Origin: Pseudoxanthomonas sp. PXM02
GTDB lineage: Bacteria; Pseudomonadota; Gammaproteobacteria; Xanthomonadales; Xanthomonadaceae
DNA: 64,000 nt
Reading direction: 5' to 3'
Assembly (NCBI RefSeq): GCF_014851805.1
Contig: NZ_JACVAK010000001.1
Location: 1,178,001 to 1,242,000, forward strand
The number at the start of each line of letters is the position of its first letter. The first letter of the stretch is position 1. Under the pieces are notes generated by a model. That model did no database searches, was not told the DNA's origin, and worked only from the letters and a program-made list of their open reading frames with translations. The translations under genes were made by a program, and so were the position numbers. Of this stretch, positions 9,597-64,000 are shown in pieces.

Positions 9597-11753
9597 TCAG
9601 CCTGAACGTCGTGCGTCTTCCACCCCGGGCAACGCGTCGAGCTTGCCCAGCAGCGTCGACAGCTGGCCGAAGTCGGCGACCTTCAGGCGCAGGCGCAGAT
9701 GCACGCGACCGCTGGCGCGGTTGCTCTGGCTGTTGATGTCCAGCACGTTGGCTTCTTCCTGGGCGATCAACGTGGTGATGTCCTTGAGCAGCCATTTGCG
9801 GTCGAGCGCGGTGACCTGCACGTCGACCTCGTAACCCCCGCCGGCCTGGCCCCATTCCACCGGCAGCACGCGCTGCGGGCTGGTGGCGGCCAATCGCGCG
9901 AACGCCGCGCAGTCGGTGCGGTGCACGGTGACGCCACGCACGCGCGTCAGGTAGCCGGCGATCGGTTCGCCCGGCACCGGCTGGCAACACTTGGCGAGCT
10001 GCACCAGCAGGTTGCCCACGCCCTGCACGGTGAACTTGGACTTGCCCGGCTTGGCGACCTTGCGCGGCGGCCGCAGCACCGGCAGCGATGGTGTTTCCGG
10101 CTCGGCCGCCGCGCGTTGCTCTTCGTGCAGCGCGCGCCCGACCTGGTGCGGGCCCACGTCGCCCAGCGCCACCTGGATGTAGAGCTCGTCGACGCTGTCG
10201 GCATGGAATTTCTTCGCCGCGCCCGACAGGTCGGCGTGATGCAGCCCCAACCGCTTCAGCTCCTTCTCCAGCAGCTCGCGGCCGGCCTGCAGGTTGCGCG
10301 CGCGGTCCAGCTTGTGGAACCACGCCCGCACCTTGTCGCGCGAGCGTCCGCTGGCCAGGAAGCCGTTGGCCTGCAGCAGCCAGTCGCGACGCGGTTCGGG
10401 CTCCTTCGACGTCAGTATCTCGACCCGGTCGCCGCTGCGCAGCACATGGTTCAGCGGCACGATCCGGCCGTTGACCTTCGCGCCGCGCGTGCGATGCCCG
10501 ACCATGGTGTGCACGTGGTAGGCGAAATCGAGCACGGTGCCTCCCTGCGGCAGGTCGACCACTTCGCCCTTCGGCGTCAGCGCGTAGACCCGGTCCTCGA
10601 CCAGTTCGGCATCCAGTTCACCGGCCAGCGCGCCTTCGCCACCGGCACCCTCCGCGGCGCCGTCCAGCAGCCGGCGCATCCAGGCGATCTTGCGGTCGAA
10701 CGCGTCGCCGCCGCCCTTGCCTTCCTTGTACTTCCAGTGCGCGGCCACGCCCAGTTCGGCCTGCGCATGCATTTCGTGCGTACGGATCTGCACTTCCAGC
10801 GTGCGGCCTTCCGGACCGACCACGGCGGTGTGGAGCGAGCGGTAGTCGTTGGCCTTGGGCCGCGCGATGTAGTCGTCAAACTCGCTGGGAATCGGCACCC
10901 ACAGCGCATGCACGATGCCCAGCGCGGCGTAGCATGCGGCCACGTCGTCCACCGCGATGCGGACCGCACGCAGGTCGTACAGCTCGTCGAAGCCGACCTG
11001 CTTGCGCTGCATCTTCCGCCAGATGCTGTAGATGTGCTTCGGTCGCCCGCTGACCTCCGCCGCGATCCCGTGTTCGGCAAGCGCCGCGCGCAACGCATCG
11101 GTGACCGCGCCGATGTAGCGCTCGCGCCCCAACCGCTTCTCGTCCAGCTGCGTGGCGATCTGCTTGTAGACCTGCGGCTGCAGGTAGCGGAACGCCAGGT
11201 CTTCCAGTTCCCACTTCAACTGCCAGATGCCCAGCCGGTTCGCCAGCGGGGCATGGATATCGCGCGTGAGCCGCGCCAGCGCCTGGCGCTCGGCGTCGGG
11301 TAACGCCCCCGCGGCGCGCATGCGGGCAAGCTGGCGCGCCAGCAGGATGGTCACCACGCGCAGGTCGCGCACGATCGCCAGCAGCAGGCGGCGCAGGCCC
11401 TCCGTGTTCACGCCACGCGTCTGCTCGGCGTGCAGCGCCCAGACCTGGGCGGCGGCCACCTGCCCTTCCAGCAAATCGGCCAGTCCAGGGACCTGCTTGC
11501 CGACGGCGCCGGCGAACGCCGGCTGCAGCGCTGGCAATCCGTGCAGCACGGCCGCAAGAATGACGTCGCCATCCGCCCCGAGTGTCGCCAGCGTATCCAG
11601 CGTGTCGGCCAGCACATCGATGGCATCGGGCATGCCGTCGTGTACCGGGACCGGTGTCGCCGCGTCGGCAAGCACGCGACGCAACGGCGCGGGCAGCGCC
11701 AGCAGGGCGGGCCGTTGCAGCAGCGTGGCGATGTCGTGGACGGGGGGAACCAT
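9597..11753 (-). CDS. relA: GTP pyrophosphokinase RelA, (p)ppGpp synthetase I
   Basis: The product has 718 residues. It transfers pyrophosphate from ATP to GDP/GTP on stalled ribosomes to start the stringent response. Domains in order are an N-terminal HD-like region, the synthetase, TGS and C-terminal regulatory/ACT domains. The synthetase shows GRPKHIYSIWRKM (236-248) and EFDD (291-294), the EXDD form found in monofunctional RelA rather than the RXKD of SpoT. The hydrolase signature HDxxED is degenerate (HGLP at 71-74), so the protein should lack hydrolase activity, as in E. coli RelA. The TGS region starts near VEDRVYALTPKGEVVDLP. The ATG at 11753 gives a normal family length. Confidence 0.93.
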   Translation of the reverse strand: MVPPVHDIATLLQRPALLALPAPLRRVLADAATPVPVHDGMPDAIDVLADTLDTLATLGADGDVILAAVLHGLPALQPAFAGAVGKQVPGLADLLEGQVAAAQVWALHAEQTRGVNTEGLRRLLLAIVRDLRVVTILLARQLARMRAAGALPDAERQALARLTRDIHAPLANRLGIWQLKWELEDLAFRYLQPQVYKQIATQLDEKRLGRERYIGAVTDALRAALAEHGIAAEVSGRPKHIYSIWRKMQRKQVGFDELYDLRAVRIAVDDVAACYAALGIVHALWVPIPSEFDDYIARPKANDYRSLHTAVVGPEGRTLEVQIRTHEMHAQAELGVAAHWKYKEGKGGGDAFDRKIAWMRRLLDGAAEGAGGEGALAGELDAELVEDRVYALTPKGEVVDLPQGGTVLDFAYHVHTMVGHRTRGAKVNGRIVPLNHVLRSGDRVEILTSKEPEPRRDWLLQANGFLASGRSRDKVRAWFHKLDRARNLQAGRELLEKELKRLGLHHADLSGAAKKFHADSVDELYIQVALGDVGPHQVGRALHEEQRAAAEPETPSLPVLRPPRKVAKPGKSKFTVQGVGNLLVQLAKCCQPVPGEPIAGYLTRVRGVTVHRTDCAAFARLAATSPQRVLPVEWGQAGGGYEVDVQVTALDRKWLLKDITTLIAQEEANVLDINSQSNRASGRVHLRLRLKVADFGQLSTLLGKLDALPGVEDARRSG

Positions 11754-56916: not shown

Positions 56917-57351
56917 TCACTTTTTGCGTGCGCCGCGTCCACCACCGACGTTGATCGTCAGGTCTGGCTGGACAGGATTTCCCTGTATGACCTGCGCCTG
57001 TTCGCCGCCCTTGATGGTAATGCCGCGCTTTGAGGTCGGTGCCGACGTGTTTAGCTGCAGCAGGATTTCCAGAATCAGGTTGCGCACCTCAGGCTTCATG
57101 CGATGGAAGTGCGCCAGTAAAGCCGCGTCCTCTGCGGATGCGCTCGCTTGCGCGCTGCTTCGGCCTGTCAGGACAAACACTACATCCACGCCGAGATCGG
57201 CAGCGGCCGCGAGATACATGCCTCCCGGCACCTGGTCGCCGCTTTCGTAATTGAGCTGCGCTCGCTTGGACGAATCGCAGGCCTCTGCCATCGCCTGCTG
57301 CGTCAGACCCAACCGCTGGCGTTCCTCTTTAAGCCGCTTACCCAGTTCCAT
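56917..57351 (-). CDS. XRE-family phage repressor
   Basis: The product has 144 residues from the ATG at 57351, preceded by GGAGAGAGAC. The helix-turn-helix spans about residues 4-58 (LGKRLKEERQRLGLTQQAMAEACDSS). A middle part (ADLGVDVVFVLTGR) matches short prophage XRE regulators, and the tail is Gly/Lys-rich. There is no LexA-like peptidase domain, so induction is not by simple RecA-stimulated self-cleavage. It should bind the palindrome in front of its own gene and hold the early genes silent. An ATG at 57363 is an alternative start. Confidence 0.85.
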   Translation of the reverse strand: MELGKRLKEERQRLGLTQQAMAEACDSSKRAQLNYESGDQVPGGMYLAAAADLGVDVVFVLTGRSSAQASASAEDAALLAHFHRMKPEVRNLILEILLQLNTSAPTSKRGITIKGGEQAQVIQGNPVQPDLTINVGGGRGARKK

Positions 57352-57382
57352 GTCTCTCTCCATGAGGTGAACAAAACTGCGC

Positions 57383-57406
57383 TTGACAGGTGCATTATTA
57401 TGCACC
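57383..57406. promoter_or_regulatory. Genetic switch: TTGACA box and operator palindrome
   Basis: TTGACA (57383-57388) is followed directly by GGTGCATTATTATGCACC (57389-57406), a palindrome with perfect 7-bp arms. It lies between the divergent repressor and gp16-like genes. Two direct TTCACGC repeats lie at about 57412-57429. A TATTAT inside the palindrome could serve as a -10. A repressor bound here would block the early promoter. Confidence 0.7.
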
Positions 57407-57440
57407 AAGCTTTCACGCAAATTCACGCGATGACCCGCGC

Positions 57441-58808: not shown

Positions 58809-58948
58809 AGCCCGTCCGCATCATCGCGTGGACCCTGCTGGGCGCCAGCTGCGCGTCCTCGCTTACCGGCAACACAACCGCCGCCGCCGTGTTCACCACG
58901 GGCGCGGCAATCATCTACGCCATGGCACTGCTGCGGAGTAAGCCGTGA
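58805..58948 (+). CDS. Small early membrane protein
   Basis: The product has 47 residues with two hydrophobic stretches (IIAWTLLGASCASSL and AAAVFTTGAAIIYAMALL). It overlaps the preceding gene by 4 bp (ATGA). It closes this run of coupled genes before the non-coding stretch. Confidence 0.5.
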   Translation: MKPVRIIAWTLLGASCASSLTGNTTAAAVFTTGAAIIYAMALLRSKP

Positions 58949-59031
58949 CGACACAGCATGTTGTGGGCGTTCACGCGTTTACCCACAAAATCCCCTTGAC
59001 AGGTGCGCCCGAGCGGAGCAACCATTCCCAC

Positions 59032-59117
59032 GTCGCCGCAAAATCGGCGACCGGGATTGGCGTCCCGACACCTGAGGCGCACCAGCGCCCATCGCACGAT
59101 GCAAGGCGCTTTTTTTT
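59032..59117 (+). ncRNA. Candidate structured small RNA (C4/CI-like antisense RNA)
   Basis: The gene-free stretch 58949-59277 holds this unit. TTGACA at 58996-59001 may start it, though no good -10 is seen. Three hairpins follow: GTCGCCG/CGGCGAC (59032-59051), CGGGA/TCCCG with loop TTGGCG (59052-59067), and a terminator AGCGCC-CATCG/CGATG-GGCGCT with eight T (59084-59117). Size (about 86 nt), compact folding and place upstream of replication genes resemble the P4 CI and P1 C4 RNAs. The TTGGCG loop is the exact complement of CGCCAA loops in two downstream leaders. Transcription is inferred, not shown. Confidence 0.55.
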
Positions 59118-59204
59118 CGCCCGGCATCGCACTGGGCACATGCCAGCCACTTCAATGGCGGGCGGTACGTGGGGGGCTTCGGCCCCGCCGGTCCTCAGGC
59201 CGGT

Positions 59205-59251
59205 ACGCCAACCCGTGCCGTCCGCCACCCCGATTGGCGTTGGGGCGGCGG
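59205..59251 (+). promoter_or_regulatory. Complementary ACGCCAA / TTGGCGT pair and hairpin
   Basis: ACGCCAA (59205-59211) can pair with TTGGCGT in the next hairpin loop (59234-59240) or in the small RNA (59057-59063). That hairpin is long: CCGCC-CCCC/GGGG-GGCGG at 59222-59251. This gives an A-B-C order (TTGGCGT, ACGCCAA, TTGGCGT) like seqA-seqB-seqC of phage P4. It lies just ahead of the small gene at 59278. Confidence 0.5.
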
Positions 59252-59277
59252 ATTCCACTTCACCTGAGGAATCCAGC

Positions 59278-59388
59278 ATGCACAACGACACCCAAGCCAC
59301 GCCCGGCAGCAGCCACGCGCGGCAGATCGTCATCACCCTTCCCCGCCATACCGACACCGTGCGCGCTGCGCGCGAAGGTGGTCGCTAA
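59278..59388 (+). CDS. Small early protein, hypothetical
   Basis: The product has 36 residues. A good ribosome site (TGAGGA at 59265-59270) precedes the ATG, and the stop overlaps the next ATG by one base. The product is basic at the end (VRAAREGGR). It may serve mainly to couple translation of the following gene. Confidence 0.5.
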   Translation: MHNDTQATPGSSHARQIVITLPRHTDTVRAAREGGR

Positions 59389-59666
59389 TGGCCGCTGCAA
59401 TCGAACTGCAGACCGTCGTCGCAGGCGTTCACCTGCGCGTCTCTCGCGTTGCCAAGGTGCCCCTATTCGCGTCCCTGCAGGACGCCACGCACACGTGCCT
59501 CACAGTCATGACCACCACGCCCGACGCGATCAAGCGCGGCGCCGGTGCGCGTGGCGAGCTGTTCATCGGCACCAATCTGTTCCTGCTGCAGCTCGGCGAG
59601 CCGGAGCGCCTGCTGGAGTGGCTGGAAACCGATCCGGTCACGGCAACCGAAGGGGCGCGCGCATGA
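59388..59666 (+). CDS. Hypothetical early protein
   Basis: The product has 92 residues, soluble, with a mixed alpha/beta pattern (VVAGVHLRVSRVAKVPLFASLQDATHTCLTVMTTTPDAIKRG; ELFIGTNLFLLQLGEPERLLEWL). No family is recognised. It overlaps the gene before by 1 bp and the gene after by 4 bp. Confidence 0.55.
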   Translation: MAAAIELQTVVAGVHLRVSRVAKVPLFASLQDATHTCLTVMTTTPDAIKRGAGARGELFIGTNLFLLQLGEPERLLEWLETDPVTATEGARA

Positions 59667-59911
59667 GCAACGTTCGTAAGCATCCGACCGCCGAGCGCGG
59701 CAGCGTAGACAACGCCCAGGTGATCAACGGGCAGGACTACGACCGCCTGTGGCGCGCACAGCAGGCGGTGACGCTGCTGGCCGCGCTCAACAACGACGCC
59801 GCCGCAGATCGCGGCATCTCCCACGACAGCACGGCCGCCGTCGCCGAGTACATCCGCGACGACATGCTGGACATTCTCACGCACTCCACGCCCGCCGGCG
59901 GGCAACCCTAA
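59663..59911 (+). CDS. Hypothetical early protein
   Basis: The product has 82 residues, helical and soluble (DYDRLWRAQQAVTLLAALNND; VAEYIRDDMLDILTH). This is typical of small phage genes next to replication genes. No function can be given. It overlaps the previous gene by 4 bp and is followed by the primase leader region. Confidence 0.55.
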   Translation: MSNVRKHPTAERGSVDNAQVINGQDYDRLWRAQQAVTLLAALNNDAAADRGISHDSTAAVAEYIRDDMLDILTHSTPAGGQP

Positions 59912-59921
59912 CAACACCCCG

Positions 59922-59956
59922 CAGGCCGACGCGGTGCGCCAACACCGCTCGGCCTG
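59922..59956 (+). promoter_or_regulatory. Leader hairpin with CGCCAA loop upstream of the primase
   Basis: CAGGCCGA-GCGGTG pairs with CACCGC-TCGGCCTG (14 bp with one bulge), leaving a 6-nt loop CGCCAA (59937-59942). It lies 23 bp ahead of the leader peptide ATG. The loop is the exact complement of the TTGGCG loop in the candidate small RNA. Confidence 0.65.
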
Positions 59957-59979
59957 AGTACCACTCAGGAGAGAGAGCC

Positions 59980-60015
59980 ATGCAACACCACGTGTCCATC
60001 AAGGCGGCAGGTTGA
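59980..60015 (+). CDS. Primase leader peptide
   Basis: This is an 11-residue frame (MQHHVSIKAAG) with a strong ribosome site (AGGAGAGAG, 59967-59975). It stops 7 bp before the primase ATG, which has no ribosome site of its own. Coupling by reinitiation is likely, as for icd and ant in phage P1. The ribosome site and first codons (GAGCC-ATG-CAACA) recur at gene 62826. Confidence 0.5.
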   Translation: MQHHVSIKAAG

Positions 60016-60022
60016 CCAGCAC

Positions 60023-62716
60023 ATGCAGGAAGATCTGCGCCAACAAGTAATCACACGGCTGGAGCGCGACTACGGCCTCAAGCTGCGCAACGGCACCGAA
60101 TACATGCGCGGCGGCAAGTGCCCGTCGTGCGGTAAAAAGGAGCTGTACTGCAATCACACGCACCCGTGGGTGGTGCGCTGCGGCCGGCAGGCAAAGTGTG
60201 GCCGCGAGATCCACGTCAAGGATCAGTATGACGATCTGTTCGACGACTGGAGCAAGCGCCACCCGGTCACCGACACCAACCCGCACGCGGCAGCCGAGGC
60301 CTACCTGCAGCATTCGCGTGGCTTCGATCTGGCCCGCGTGCGCGGTCTGTTCACGCAGGACAATTACTGGAACCCGACGCTGCAGCAAGGCAGCGCCACG
60401 GTGCGTTTCGTGCTGGAGCGCGGCGAGTGGTGGGAGCGACTGATCGACCGGCCGCACCGCTTCGGCAAGATGAAAGCGCGATTCAAGCCCGGCGCCAGCT
60501 TCGCAGGCGTGTGGTGGGCCGCGCCCGAAGTGACCGAGCGCCTGGCCGAGGTCAAAGAGCTGTGGATCGTGGAGGGCATTTTCGACTCGCTGGCGCACGT
60601 GCATCACGGCAATGACGCCGTGTCGGCCATGTCGTCCAATCAGTTCCCCGAGGCATCGCTGCGCAAGCTGGCCGAGCTGCGCAAAGGCAACCTGCCGACG
60701 CTGATCTGGGCGCCGGACAACGAGGTGACCGCACGCGACTACCTGCGCAAGCACGTGGCACGTGCGCGCGCCATGGGCTTCACCTGCAGGGCGGCGCTGA
60801 TCCCCCAGCGCAACGACCGCAAAGTGGACTGGAACGATCTGCACCTGCGCGCGCTATCGCAGGGCGACAAGGTCGATCAGGCAAAGCAGTGGGACGACGA
60901 CGTGGCGGAAGCCCGGTATCAGGGCGACCTGGTGCTGGCCAAGACCGCCAAGGACAAGGCGCTGCTGATCTTCAACCACGATGGCCGGCATGAGTTCCAT
61001 TTCGAGTACCGCGCCCGCCTGTGGTGGTTCGACTTCGACAGTGCGCGCTTCGAGAAGGTCAAAAAGGAATGGGTCAACGAAAAGGGCGAGGAGGATCTGG
61101 AGGAACACCTGCCCAAGTTGCAGGCCTCGGCATCGTCCGTGCGCGAGATCGCCAACTGTTACCCGGAAGCGCTGTATTTCCAGCGCAACGAGGTCACCGA
61201 CGAGTCCTGGTATTACTTCCGCGTTGACTTCCCGCATGAAGCCCCGAGCGTGCGCGGCACGTTCACCGCGTCACAGACGCTCAACGGTCCCGCCTTCCGC
61301 GACCGCCTGGCATCCTTCGCGCCCGGCGCCGTGTTCGACGGCACCGCATCCGAACTGATCCACGTGATGAAAGACCAGCTCTACAACATCAAGAAGGTCG
61401 ACGCCATCGACTTCGTGGGCTACAGCAAGGAACACCGCGCGTACCTGCTGGGCGACATGGCGGTGCGGGCCGGCGAGCTGGTGGTGGCCAACGAAGAGGA
61501 TTATTTTGAGTTCGACAAGCTGCGCCTAAAGACCACGCAGAAGTCCATCAGGCTGGAGATCCAGCGCGACTCAGACGGCTACCGCACCGATTGGCTGCCG
61601 TGGCTGTGGACGTGCTTTGGCACGCACGGCATGGTCGCCCTTACGTTTTGGTTCGGCTCGCTGTTCGCCGAGCAGATCCGCGCCGCACACAAGAGCTATC
61701 CGTTCCTCGAAGCCACGGGCGAGGCCGGCGCGGGCAAGACCACGCTGCTGACGTTCCTGTGGAAGCTGCTGGGCCGCAGCGATTACGAAGGCTTCGATCC
61801 GGCCAAGTCGTCCAAGGCGGGCCGTGCGCGCGCCATGGGCCAGATTTCGGGCATGCCGGTGGTGCTGCTGGAGGCCGACCGCAACGAGCCGGACAAGGCT
61901 CATTCCAAGACGTTCGAGTGGGACGAGCTGAAAGACTTTTTCGGCGGCGGCACGCTGGCCACGCGCGGCGTGCGCAACGGCGGCAATGACACGTATGAGC
62001 CGCCCTTTCGCGGCACTATCGTGATCAGCCAGAACGCCGCGGTGGACGCCAGCGAGGCGATCCTGACGCGTATCGTCAAGCTGCATTTCAAGCGGCCCGA
62101 GGTCACGACCGAGAGCCGCATTGCCGCCGACAACCTCAACGCGCTGCCGGTGGAGGCTCTAAGCCACTTCCTGATCAAGGCGATCAGCGCCGAGGGGAAG
62201 ATTCTGGAGCGGTTCGCCGACCGCGCCCGATTTTTCGAAGCGGCGCTGCGCGAGCGGAAAGAGATCCGCGTCGAGCGCGTGATCAAGAACCACGCGCAGA
62301 TGCTGGCGCTGTTCGACTGCCTGCGCCTGGTGCTGGAGATCCCCGAGGCCATGGTGAAGGCCACGCGCGACGCGCTGGTGCAGATGGCACTGGATCGTCA
62401 GACCGCGATCAACGCCGACAACCCGCTGGTGGTCGAGTTCTGGGAGGTCTACGAATACCTCGAAGCCATGAAGGCGGGCGGGCACGTGGTCAACCACTCG
62501 CGCGATGACAAGCGCATCTGCATCAACCTCAACGAGTTCTATGCCAAGGCCGCGTACCACTCGCAGCGGCTGCCCGATCTCAACGTGATTCGCGCCCTGC
62601 TGCGCAACTCGCGCCGGCACAAGTTCCTCGACGCCAATACGGCCGTGAACAGCTACATCAATGCCGGTTCGACCGACAAGCCATCCACCGTGAAGTGCTG
62701 GGTATTCCAAGCATGA
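60023..62716 (+). CDS. Phage DNA primase/helicase (zinc-finger, TOPRIM and P-loop domains)
   Basis: The product has 897 residues. The N-terminal zinc site is CPSCGKKELYCNHTHPWVVRC..KCG (about 33-59), as in CHC2-type primases. A TOPRIM-like domain follows (ELWIVEGIFDSLAHV and PTLIWAPDNE, about 180-240). The C-terminal half is a P-loop ATPase with GEAGAGKTT at 566-574 and PVVLLEADRNEPDK as a possible Walker B region. It should prime and unwind DNA at the phage origin. This differs from P2, which replicates by the rolling-circle initiator gpA. Translation probably depends on the leader peptide. Confidence 0.85.
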   Translation: MQEDLRQQVITRLERDYGLKLRNGTEYMRGGKCPSCGKKELYCNHTHPWVVRCGRQAKCGREIHVKDQYDDLFDDWSKRHPVTDTNPHAAAEAYLQHSRGFDLARVRGLFTQDNYWNPTLQQGSATVRFVLERGEWWERLIDRPHRFGKMKARFKPGASFAGVWWAAPEVTERLAEVKELWIVEGIFDSLAHVHHGNDAVSAMSSNQFPEASLRKLAELRKGNLPTLIWAPDNEVTARDYLRKHVARARAMGFTCRAALIPQRNDRKVDWNDLHLRALSQGDKVDQAKQWDDDVAEARYQGDLVLAKTAKDKALLIFNHDGRHEFHFEYRARLWWFDFDSARFEKVKKEWVNEKGEEDLEEHLPKLQASASSVREIANCYPEALYFQRNEVTDESWYYFRVDFPHEAPSVRGTFTASQTLNGPAFRDRLASFAPGAVFDGTASELIHVMKDQLYNIKKVDAIDFVGYSKEHRAYLLGDMAVRAGELVVANEEDYFEFDKLRLKTTQKSIRLEIQRDSDGYRTDWLPWLWTCFGTHGMVALTFWFGSLFAEQIRAAHKSYPFLEATGEAGAGKTTLLTFLWKLLGRSDYEGFDPAKSSKAGRARAMGQISGMPVVLLEADRNEPDKAHSKTFEWDELKDFFGGGTLATRGVRNGGNDTYEPPFRGTIVISQNAAVDASEAILTRIVKLHFKRPEVTTESRIAADNLNALPVEALSHFLIKAISAEGKILERFADRARFFEAALRERKEIRVERVIKNHAQMLALFDCLRLVLEIPEAMVKATRDALVQMALDRQTAINADNPLVVEFWEVYEYLEAMKAGGHVVNHSRDDKRICINLNEFYAKAAYHSQRLPDLNVIRALLRNSRRHKFLDANTAVNSYINAGSTDKPSTVKCWVFQA

Positions 62717-62769
62717 CCACGAACCCAAACCCTGCCGGCAGGTAGCCGGAAAAAGTGAGCCCGGCGGGC

Positions 62770-62783
62770 GGTGCGCCAACACC
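62770..62783 (+). promoter_or_regulatory. Second leader hairpin with CGCCAA loop
   Basis: GGTG-CGCCAA-CACC repeats the core of the primase leader hairpin, 42 bp before the ATG at 62826. The following CAGGAGA...GAGCC-ATG-CAACA also matches the primase leader. Both leaders could be bound by the same loop TTGGCG. Confidence 0.55.
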
Positions 62784-62825
62784 ACCCCGAGGGTTTCCCC
62801 AAACGAAGCTCAGGAGATGAGAGCC

Positions 62826-63257
62826 ATGCAACAGATGAGCGGGAATAGCCCCACAACAAGCGTTACACCTTCGCCGGGATCCACCACCGGACCCGGCGCG
62901 GACAGTACCACGGCGGCGGTTAACGGCGTGGATTTGGGTGTGCTGAACACCGAGTGCCACGCGGAGGTGCATATCCGCATCGAGCGCAGCCGCGTGGTGC
63001 TGACCGGCGTCCTGCAGATGGGCGGCCGGCATGAGCTGGTCAAGACGTGGGAGCGCCACGCCGGCAAGGGGGGCGGCTGGGTCACCCGCACGCCTGATTT
63101 CGTCCAGTGCGGCGAGGATCTGCTGGGGCGCGAGCTGGCCGAGTATCTGGACGGCCTGCGCTTCCCGTTCGAGGTGGCCAACCTGCTGCCTAGCCCGGCG
63201 ACGGCGGCCGGCGCTGCCGCGCGTGAAGCGGCGGCAAAGGAGCTGGCCAATGCTTAA
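62826..63257 (+). CDS. Hypothetical early protein
   Basis: The product has 143 residues from ATG 62826; an ATG at 62817 would fall in the ribosome site. The Ser/Thr/Pro/Gly-rich N-terminus (about 35 residues) is probably disordered. The core (LNTECHAEVHIRIERSRVVLTGVLQMGGRHELVKTWERH) is a small alpha/beta domain, and the end is Ala-rich helix. No family is assigned. It overlaps the next gene by 8 bp. Confidence 0.55.
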   Translation: MQQMSGNSPTTSVTPSPGSTTGPGADSTTAAVNGVDLGVLNTECHAEVHIRIERSRVVLTGVLQMGGRHELVKTWERHAGKGGGWVTRTPDFVQCGEDLLGRELAEYLDGLRFPFEVANLLPSPATAAGAAAREAAAKELANA

Positions 63258-63435
63258 GGTCATCGCCCTCATGTCGATCAGCCTCGCGCCCGCCGTAGGC
63301 GGCGCGCTCATGTACCACCTGGTCCGCACCCGCGCGAAGGCGCCGGGACGCGCCGCGCTGGCGGTCGGCCAGATTCCCCTGACGCGCCGCCCGCGCCGCG
63401 CCATGGCCGTTCGCCGGGAGGTGGCCCATGTCTGA
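63250..63435 (+). CDS. Small membrane protein, hypothetical
   Basis: The product has 61 residues. One membrane segment (VIALMSISLAPAVGGALMYHLV) is followed by a very basic tail (TRAKAPGR; RRPRRAMAVRRE). It overlaps both neighbours by 8 bp, which supports translation. Confidence 0.5.
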   Translation: MLKVIALMSISLAPAVGGALMYHLVRTRAKAPGRAALAVGQIPLTRRPRRAMAVRREVAHV

Positions 63436-64000
63436 CGCTTTCTGGCGCATGGAGCGCGAGCTGCGGGCCGCGCACGCCATCATCGAACTGGCCGTGGCCA
63501 CCATGAACCGCACGGATCTGCAGCTGCTGCAGACGCGCGTGCGTGATGCAGGGATCGAGGGTAACGGCGCACTGCGCTCCGATGAGCGCGGCTCGGCCAT
63601 CAGCGCGGCCGAAGGCTTGGCGGCTGATCGCCCCGTGTTGCCGCCGCATACCGCGCACGTGCTGGGCATGGTGGGCCAACTGATCACGCTCGGTCGCGCC
63701 GACCAGCTAGCCGTTGACGAGCTGAACCGCATCGCCACCCGCGTTCGCCGTTCCTCGACGCATTTCGGCATTGGTTTGATCGCCGAGGAGCGCGCGCGTC
63801 AGTGCGAGCAGGAAGGCTTTTCCGTCGCGGGCGATACCGCATATGGCGGCGAAGAGCTGGCCATGGCTGCGGCCTGCTACGCGCTGCCCCTCAAGGACAT
63901 GCGTCGCCGTGATGGCATGTGCTTCAACACCGCGCCGGAGGGCTGGCCGTTCGCAAAACGCTGGTGGAAGCCCGCGCCAGTGACCAGCGATGGGCAAGGC
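63428..64000 (+). CDS. Hypothetical phage protein (3' end beyond window)
   Basis: The frame is open to the window edge, 191 codons so far, starting ATG 63428. The segment LIAEERARQCEQEGFSVAGDTAYGGEELAMAAACYALP followed by WPFAKRWWKP is a motif common in phage proteins of unknown role (ERxRQxxxEGw...GELAxAAxxYA...WPw...WWKP). The N-terminal helical half is unassigned. It is the last gene in view. Confidence 0.65.
   Translation, partial: MSDAFWRMERELRAAHAIIELAVATMNRTDLQLLQTRVRDAGIEGNGALRSDERGSAISAAEGLAADRPVLPPHTAHVLGMVGQLITLGRADQLAVDELNRIATRVRRSSTHFGIGLIAEERARQCEQEGFSVAGDTAYGGEELAMAAACYALPLKDMRRRDGMCFNTAPEGWPFAKRWWKPAPVTSDGQG

Follow-up and report, generated by a model that had tools for sequence, protein, structure and literature searches.

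A 64 kb stretch of the Pseudoxanthomonas sp. PXM02 genome, called the window below, contains early genes of a P2-like prophage and appears to carry two separate RNA features side by side: a C4 antisense RNA module and members of a family of leader hairpins that stand ahead of early genes. We favour, at somewhat better than even chances, a model in which the C4 module is accompanied by a separate leader family whose loop is the address for a phage-specific trans-acting factor, which would act on the translation of several early genes. Among the open models this one is the most likely. The C4 module, the leader family, the covariation of its stems, the identity of loop and Shine-Dalgarno (SD) spacer within a phage and the independence of the leaders from C4 come from sequence comparison, and from these we infer the existence of the factor, translation as its target and the effect. 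The factor would more likely be a protein than an RNA.

The two leader hairpins of the window lie on the plus strand, as do all features described below unless stated otherwise. The P leader hairpin (59922-59956) exposes the loop CGCCAA (59937-59942) on an inner stem GCGGTG/CACCGC and an outer stem CAGGCCGA/TCGGCCTG. It is conserved upstream of the primase in relatives and is followed at 59967-60015 by the SD sequence AGGAG (59967-59971) and a leader peptide of 11 amino acids, MQHHVSIKAAG (ATG at 59980), both read from the sequence. The D leader hairpin (62764-62789), conserved downstream of the relatives' primase, has the same loop (62774-62779) on an inner stem GGTG/CACC; behind it, at 62812-63257, are AGGAG (62812-62816) and the D gene (ATG at 62826, 143 amino acids, phrog_20416, function unknown). 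CAGGAGA...GAGCCATGCAACA comes after both hairpins. Direct reading and a script confirmed the coordinates that an earlier note on this DNA had given for the hairpins, their loops and a nearby ACGCCAA, and its view of the two leader hairpins as genuine and akin to each other holds. Stemmed loops of this kind also arise by chance, because extra copies occur elsewhere in the 64 kb: with a stem of at least 4 pairs and G-U allowed, the plus strand has three stemmed CGCCAA loops (12148, 59937, 62774) and three stemmed TTGGCG loops (13049, 59057, 59234), and the minus strand one and two, respectively. The exact 14-mer GGTGCGCCAACACC is found three times in the 4.34 Mb genome, in the two leaders and at one further site (L001), which we take to be a recO-like coding sequence. 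Judged from the sequences, two leader copies at matching positions before start codons, both kept in relatives, go beyond chance.

Related loci were collected in two sets. The first was fetched by the primase, with 80 kept from each of two longer match lists, and is thus bound to this gene; the second (239 loci) was fetched by means of two loop patterns, at least 120 stretches each, so that at least one copy per contig is fixed by the pattern. The sequences are mostly 12-kb stretches, Dobby and Smp131 being the complete genomes. In P2-like phages with this primase, one to five copies of the leader stand ahead of early genes, and the common form is a hexaloop hairpin closed by a G-C pair (often GCNNCAAC), followed by an SD sequence and ATGCA. 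Pseudoxanthomonas, Stenotrophomonas and phage Smp131 all show this arrangement at two places, ahead of the primase leader peptide and ahead of the next gene. The commonest loops of hairpins close to the SD, collected with no loop criterion, were CTGCAA (40), CGGCAA (25) and CGCCAA (16) of 279. When the loop and SD..ATGCA were the sole criteria, at least four of five flanking pairs were present at 81 of the 96 distinct GCNNCAAC sites before SD..ATGCA, compared with 79 of 920 sites elsewhere. Different stems, such as GGTG/CACC or GGCG/CGCC, enclose one loop. In an alignment of 77 leader sites chosen without a stem criterion (77 of 78 rows, one row containing N being left out), 77.8% of the cells were paired versus 52.3% after shuffling, and the covariation score was 0.519 versus 0.133 for shuffled and at most 0.143 for slid versions; both sides change in eight of nine stem pairs, which is not above the shuffles (132/500). 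Rfam gave no match to the leaders in window positions 58900-64000 and five Pseudomonas loci (E-values up to 1) or in twelve loci at the gathering score, and the G-C-closed C....A hexaloop leader was absent from the stretches of the Halomonas 4908, ESSI2_ev239 and phi3 phages, which have more distant primases. Taken together, the comparison indicates that the leader family is real. We did not find it described in the literature covered, with most subscription journals outside, and the part of the Smp131 paper available to us (PMC3931495) contains no mention of antisense, small RNA (sRNA), hairpin, stem-loop or leader.

Among the genes borne behind leaders are a paralogue resembling the primase, one member of a PHROG named DNA polymerase and genes without known function; one of the proteins looks membrane-bound by eye. 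The paralogue, a second protein resembling the C-terminal part of the primase, lies behind a leader after the primase in L032 (7762-8592), L034 (7865-8686) and L070 (8048-8863), and was assigned to phrog_1139 for L032 and by eye for the other two. Leader genes of L032, L034, L067, L072, L081 and L054 share a start like MQ(A/V)xQPQGGxA on different bodies, as if at a swap point. A related lineage has a leader hairpin with TTG-type loops (TTGCAG, TTGCAC, TTGGCC, TTGCGC; read partly from printed context) before an MQA gene in 13 of 28 Pseudomonas loci, for example L028, L035, L043 and L062.

What points to an address is that the loop follows the phage. Leaders with one of 11 listed loops were detected in 119 of 163 first-set sources, near-duplicates included (matches with other loops also occur in the window, L038, L052, L055, L074 and L082), and each of the 37 sources with two or more had a single loop. 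Every one of the 21 distinct multi-copy Pseudomonas phages had one loop, a result reached by none of 20,000 shuffles. In these phages the loop was identical in 50 of 50 pairs within a phage versus 0.44 between phages, and the SD spacer reached 0.92 versus 0.42, while the identity of the 4-nt stem was 0.08 within and 0.09 between. Widening the count to the 34 distinct multi-copy phages in the first set gave 63 of 63 versus 0.30 for the loop and 0.81 versus 0.23 for the spacer. The second set, with one to five copies counted per locus and zero in 3, gave one loop in 80 of 86 distinct multi-leader loci, counted after removal of duplicates and of loops not of the C....A form. Here, the loop agreed in 188 of 201 pairs within a locus versus 0.514 between, the spacer in 176 of 201 versus 0.514 and the stem in 13 of 201 versus 0.062. 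Single loci illustrate the same behaviour: L032 has CGGCAA in four copies and the related L041 CAGCAA in three, and the copies at 10777 (L032) and 10461 (L041) differ at one of 24 bases, which is located in the loop. L053 (8956) and L057 (9329) have a common inner stem GGGGAG/CTCCCC and the loops CGGCAA and CTGCAA. A trans-acting reader predicts a phage-wise loop with differing stems; copying of the whole element does not.

Several observations weigh against the loop as an address. Six of the 86 multi-leader loci of the second set mix loops, most Xanthomonas-type loci have a single copy with a varying loop, and across the 34 first-set phages the stems, too, have a somewhat higher identity within a phage (0.16) than between phages (0.08). 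The counts cover listed loops in the first set and C....A loops in the second, and relatedness remains in the shuffle controls. The searches gave no reader, and no early protein was found that tracks the loop strictly. Nearly identical copies of gene 2, the gene directly upstream of the P leader, accompany different loops in L009 (CTGTCA) and L061 (CTGTAA) and in L124 (CTGGAA) and L133 (CTCGAA), and in Pseudomonas the sole protein with a nearest-neighbour accuracy of 1.00 occurs in no more than 13 of 30 loci.

The candidates for a protein reader were judged by how well they follow the loop. In Xanthomonas-type pairs with a primase identity of at least 97%, gene 1, the neighbour of gene 2, was 0.899 identical when the loop was the same versus 0.668 when it differed, and gene 2 0.896 versus 0.677. 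The D gene tracks the loop less strongly (0.915 versus 0.801), as do the small genes after it. Outside the loop, column information peaked in gene 2 at offset -142 (1.23, with 1.22 and 1.40 for the loop columns), which is compatible with linkage. Genes 1 and 2 were rejected as reader, since near-same copies of gene 2 accompany different loops and linkage is the simpler reading. The presence or absence of genes was likewise dropped as a guide, since some of the 29 Pseudomonas loci classed as leaderless do carry such a hairpin: of 28 inspected again, 13 have one with another loop.

The alternative that survives best, although we consider it rather unlikely, is that leader and start region together form a linker for recombination where modules meet, that recombination between the copies keeps it homogeneous within a phage, and that the loop is not read at all. 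Such a linker would fit the common start, such as MQxxQPQGGxA, on the different bodies of several leader-borne genes, and also SD spacers that are phage-homogeneous like the loops. It does not fit the stems: although placed between loop and SD, stems of one phage resemble each other no more than those of different phages in the Pseudomonas sets (0.08 versus 0.09 and 0.065 versus 0.062), and the stems covary.

A second antisense RNA that reads the leaders by C4-like targeting of loop plus SD is improbable. In its favour, the leader, with a loop hairpin and then an SD, is laid out like the C4 target b2-a2, and the SD spacer shares the phage specificity of the loop. A complementary RNA partner was sought at 6 to 8 nt, with and without an SD complement, and no convincing excess appeared. 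On the plus strand, complements of the own loop hardly outnumbered those of other loops (361 versus 354 6-mers, 43 versus 40 8-mers); the modest excess on the minus strand (635 versus 572 and 67 versus 51) was ascribed to leaders missed by the mask. Together with an SD complement, 175 own and 163 other cases were counted on both strands. The complete Smp131 genome has no complementary 8-mer on its plus strand, and complete Dobby has one (13876) with no SD complement of at least 8 nearby. Among 45 distinct Xanthomonas-type sequences, the best column pairing with the loop covered 0.889 of the rows at offset +1 and 0.886 at offset +2; at offset 0, where the base is T or G, several columns pair in full, and wobble makes such pairing easy (offsets 0 to +2 covered).

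Slightly less probable still is that the hairpins act in single-stranded DNA form, for instance as sites of priming or replication for the neighbouring primase. It is true that 113 of the 115 second-set loci of at least 9 kb, obtained by the leader pattern alone, carry this primase. The leader hairpin is, however, constantly tied to an SD and a start codon, and in the Xanthomonas-type pairs the primase identity does not change with the loop (0.979 for the same, 0.978 for a different loop).

The second RNA feature, at 59019-59280, is almost certainly a C4 antisense RNA module, to judge from family models and complementary segments. Rfam matched a c4-a1b1 element (RF03163, 46.9 bits, gathering 46.7) at 59019-59071, whose a1 and b1 are targets of C4, a predicted isrK-like small RNA (RF01394, 55.2 bits, gathering 50) at 59032-59116, ending in a GC hairpin and T run, and C4 itself (RF01695, 65.3 bits, gathering 45) at 59151-59232. 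With these matches, the small RNA is part of a C4-type antisense system, and the comparison with C4 RNA drawn in the earlier note holds. A C4 model of our own (R1), built from eight C4 sequences with the window among them, scores the window at 91.3 bits. The remaining segments were read from the sequence. Within C4, a' (CCTCAGG, 59193-59199) is complementary to CCTGAGG at both 59071-59077 (a1) and 59263-59269 (a2), and b' (TACGCCAAC, 59204-59212) contains ACGCCAA (59205-59211). The b1 hairpin CGGGA-TTGGCG-TCCCG (59052-59067, loop 59057-59062) complements b' over 7 bases, and the b2 hairpin (59228-59245, also found by script) has the second TTGGCG loop (59234-59239) in CCCCGATTGGCGTTGGGG. By means of a' and b', C4 would pair with a1b1 on its upstream side and with a2b2 on its downstream side. 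The a2 segment lies at the SD of a short open reading frame (ORF; 36 amino acids, 59278-59388), the proposed C4 target, whose TAA overlaps the ATG of gene 1 (TAATG); gene 1 would be in a C4-controlled position. By eye, a possible -35 box (TTGACA, 58997-59002) is located upstream of the a1b1 element.

Of 100 sources, made up of the window and 99 relatives with near-duplicates included, R1 detected C4 in 86; the relatives are taken as Xanthomonadales-type and comprise many viral contigs. A leader was detected in 75 of the 86. In all 62 of these loci with a script-readable b', 7-base complements to it were present on each flank; in the remaining 13 of the 75, b' ends in CTAAC, and the match with b1 and b2 was confirmed by eye in printed sequences. 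An Rfam scan of the first 12 leader-bearing loci revealed C4 in eight (two near-duplicates) and sRNA-Xcc1 in four, placed 0.6 to 3 kb upstream of the primase.

According to the earlier note, the TTGGCG loop of the small RNA or C4 module pairs with the CGCCAA loops of the leaders and sets the expression of the primase and D genes. This is very unlikely: the complementarity is exact over 6 nt in the window prophage, L087 and L152, but only 4 of 75 loci (window, L087, L152 and L075; near-duplicates included) have the leader loop within b', or 4 of 44 with duplicates removed and a script-readable b', and leaders also occur in loci without a C4 match. Ten script-readable kinds of b' form 20 combinations with leader loops in 62 loci, or 26 if the unread class is taken as one kind. 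The b' TACGCCAAC, the commonest script-readable one in leader-bearing loci (20), stands beside the loops CGCCAA, CTCGAA, CTGGAA, CTGTAA and CTGTCA, and the leader loop CGCCAA co-occurs with five kinds of b'. R1 found no C4 at E-values up to 0.01 in 39 further sources, mostly Pseudomonas and including the complete Dobby and Smp131; Smp131 carries sRNA-Xcc1 in place of C4. Leaders are present in Pseudomonas phages without a C4 match, one of them a complete genome. The containment in 4 of 75 loci, together with the leaders without a C4 match, makes it nearly certain from these comparisons that the leaders are independent of C4, and the complementarity of the two loops in this prophage looks like a coincidence. 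Instead of covarying, the loops of related prophages drift independently, the outcome that the earlier note had itself set against its proposal. Its broader idea, that several early genes are set jointly via hairpin loops, gains support; the C4 module as the reader does not.

The two features resemble several known systems. As in C4 of P1/P7 (RF01695 with c4-a1b1, RF03163), the order in 59019-59280 is a1b1, C4, a2b2, with a2 at the SD; in comparison with P1, genes 1 and 2 behind the module have no known function. The boxB/nut hairpins of lambdoid phages are read by N proteins. The leaders are like them in being short hairpins with loops that differ between related phages and are common to the copies within a phage. 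In contrast to boxB/nut, every leader copy here is tied to an SD and a start codon. For isrK-orf45-anrP of Salmonella Gifsy-1, coupling of a short ORF to the gene after it is reported (PMC4825925), and the window has the same layout of an isrK-like RNA with terminator and a short ORF overlapping the next start; a counterpart of AnrP or AntQ was not identified in the window.

sRNA-Xcc1 (RF02221) takes the C4 position in Smp131 (L241), L019, L026, L077, L223, L017, L161, L164 and others. In 21 of 21 distinct loci, both its a' and its b' have covarying complements on either side (with matches up to 2 nt shorter accepted) and a2 lies at the SD; there are six kinds of a' and seven of b' in several combinations. 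Sequence and model differ from C4, and the Rfam entry is outside the C4 clan CL00128. We offer the reading that sRNA-Xcc1, which PMC12444791 presents as an sRNA carried by an integron and controlled by virulence regulators, may be a C4-type antisense RNA of another sequence. Such pairing was not found described for it in the literature searched, including the available parts of PMC12444791 and PMC2996969.

Downstream of the module, gene 1 (59388-59666, 92 amino acids) has no PHROG match at E-values up to 0.01. Gene 2 (59663-59911, 82 amino acids) belongs to phrog_14861 (function unknown) and is predicted to be a small helical protein (mean predicted local distance difference test score, pLDDT, 76.8) without a match to its fold in the PDB at E-values up to 0.001. 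The DNA primase (60023-62716, 897 amino acids), taken from the ORF list, has domain and PHROG matches to Toprim_2 and phrog_1139. The primase gene of the window, like that of some relatives, also contains GCGCCAAC among its early codons (60037-60044 in the window), which probably reflects codon usage. Among the matches listed, the nearest named relative of the primase is from Pseudoxanthomonas wuyuanensis (L007, 89%), and that of L087, a viral contig, is 90% identical. Read beside the Smp131 annotation, the window ORFs place P2-like tail genes at the left of the prophage; these are followed by a helix-turn-helix protein on the minus strand (56917-57426), by an Ogr/Delta-like protein and by the primase. 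An ORF at 64810-66012 on the right side is presumably the integrase.

The analysis corrects the proposed link from C4 to the leaders. If the loop is an address, the leaders would be a natural variant set for finding a phage RNA reader, and a way for related prophages in one cell to stay separate. More tentatively, and at slightly less than even chances, each phage may have a private address of loop and SD spacer at one to five early genes and its own trans-acting reader, a code that would coordinate the translation of the early regulon and may prevent cross-talk between co-resident phages.

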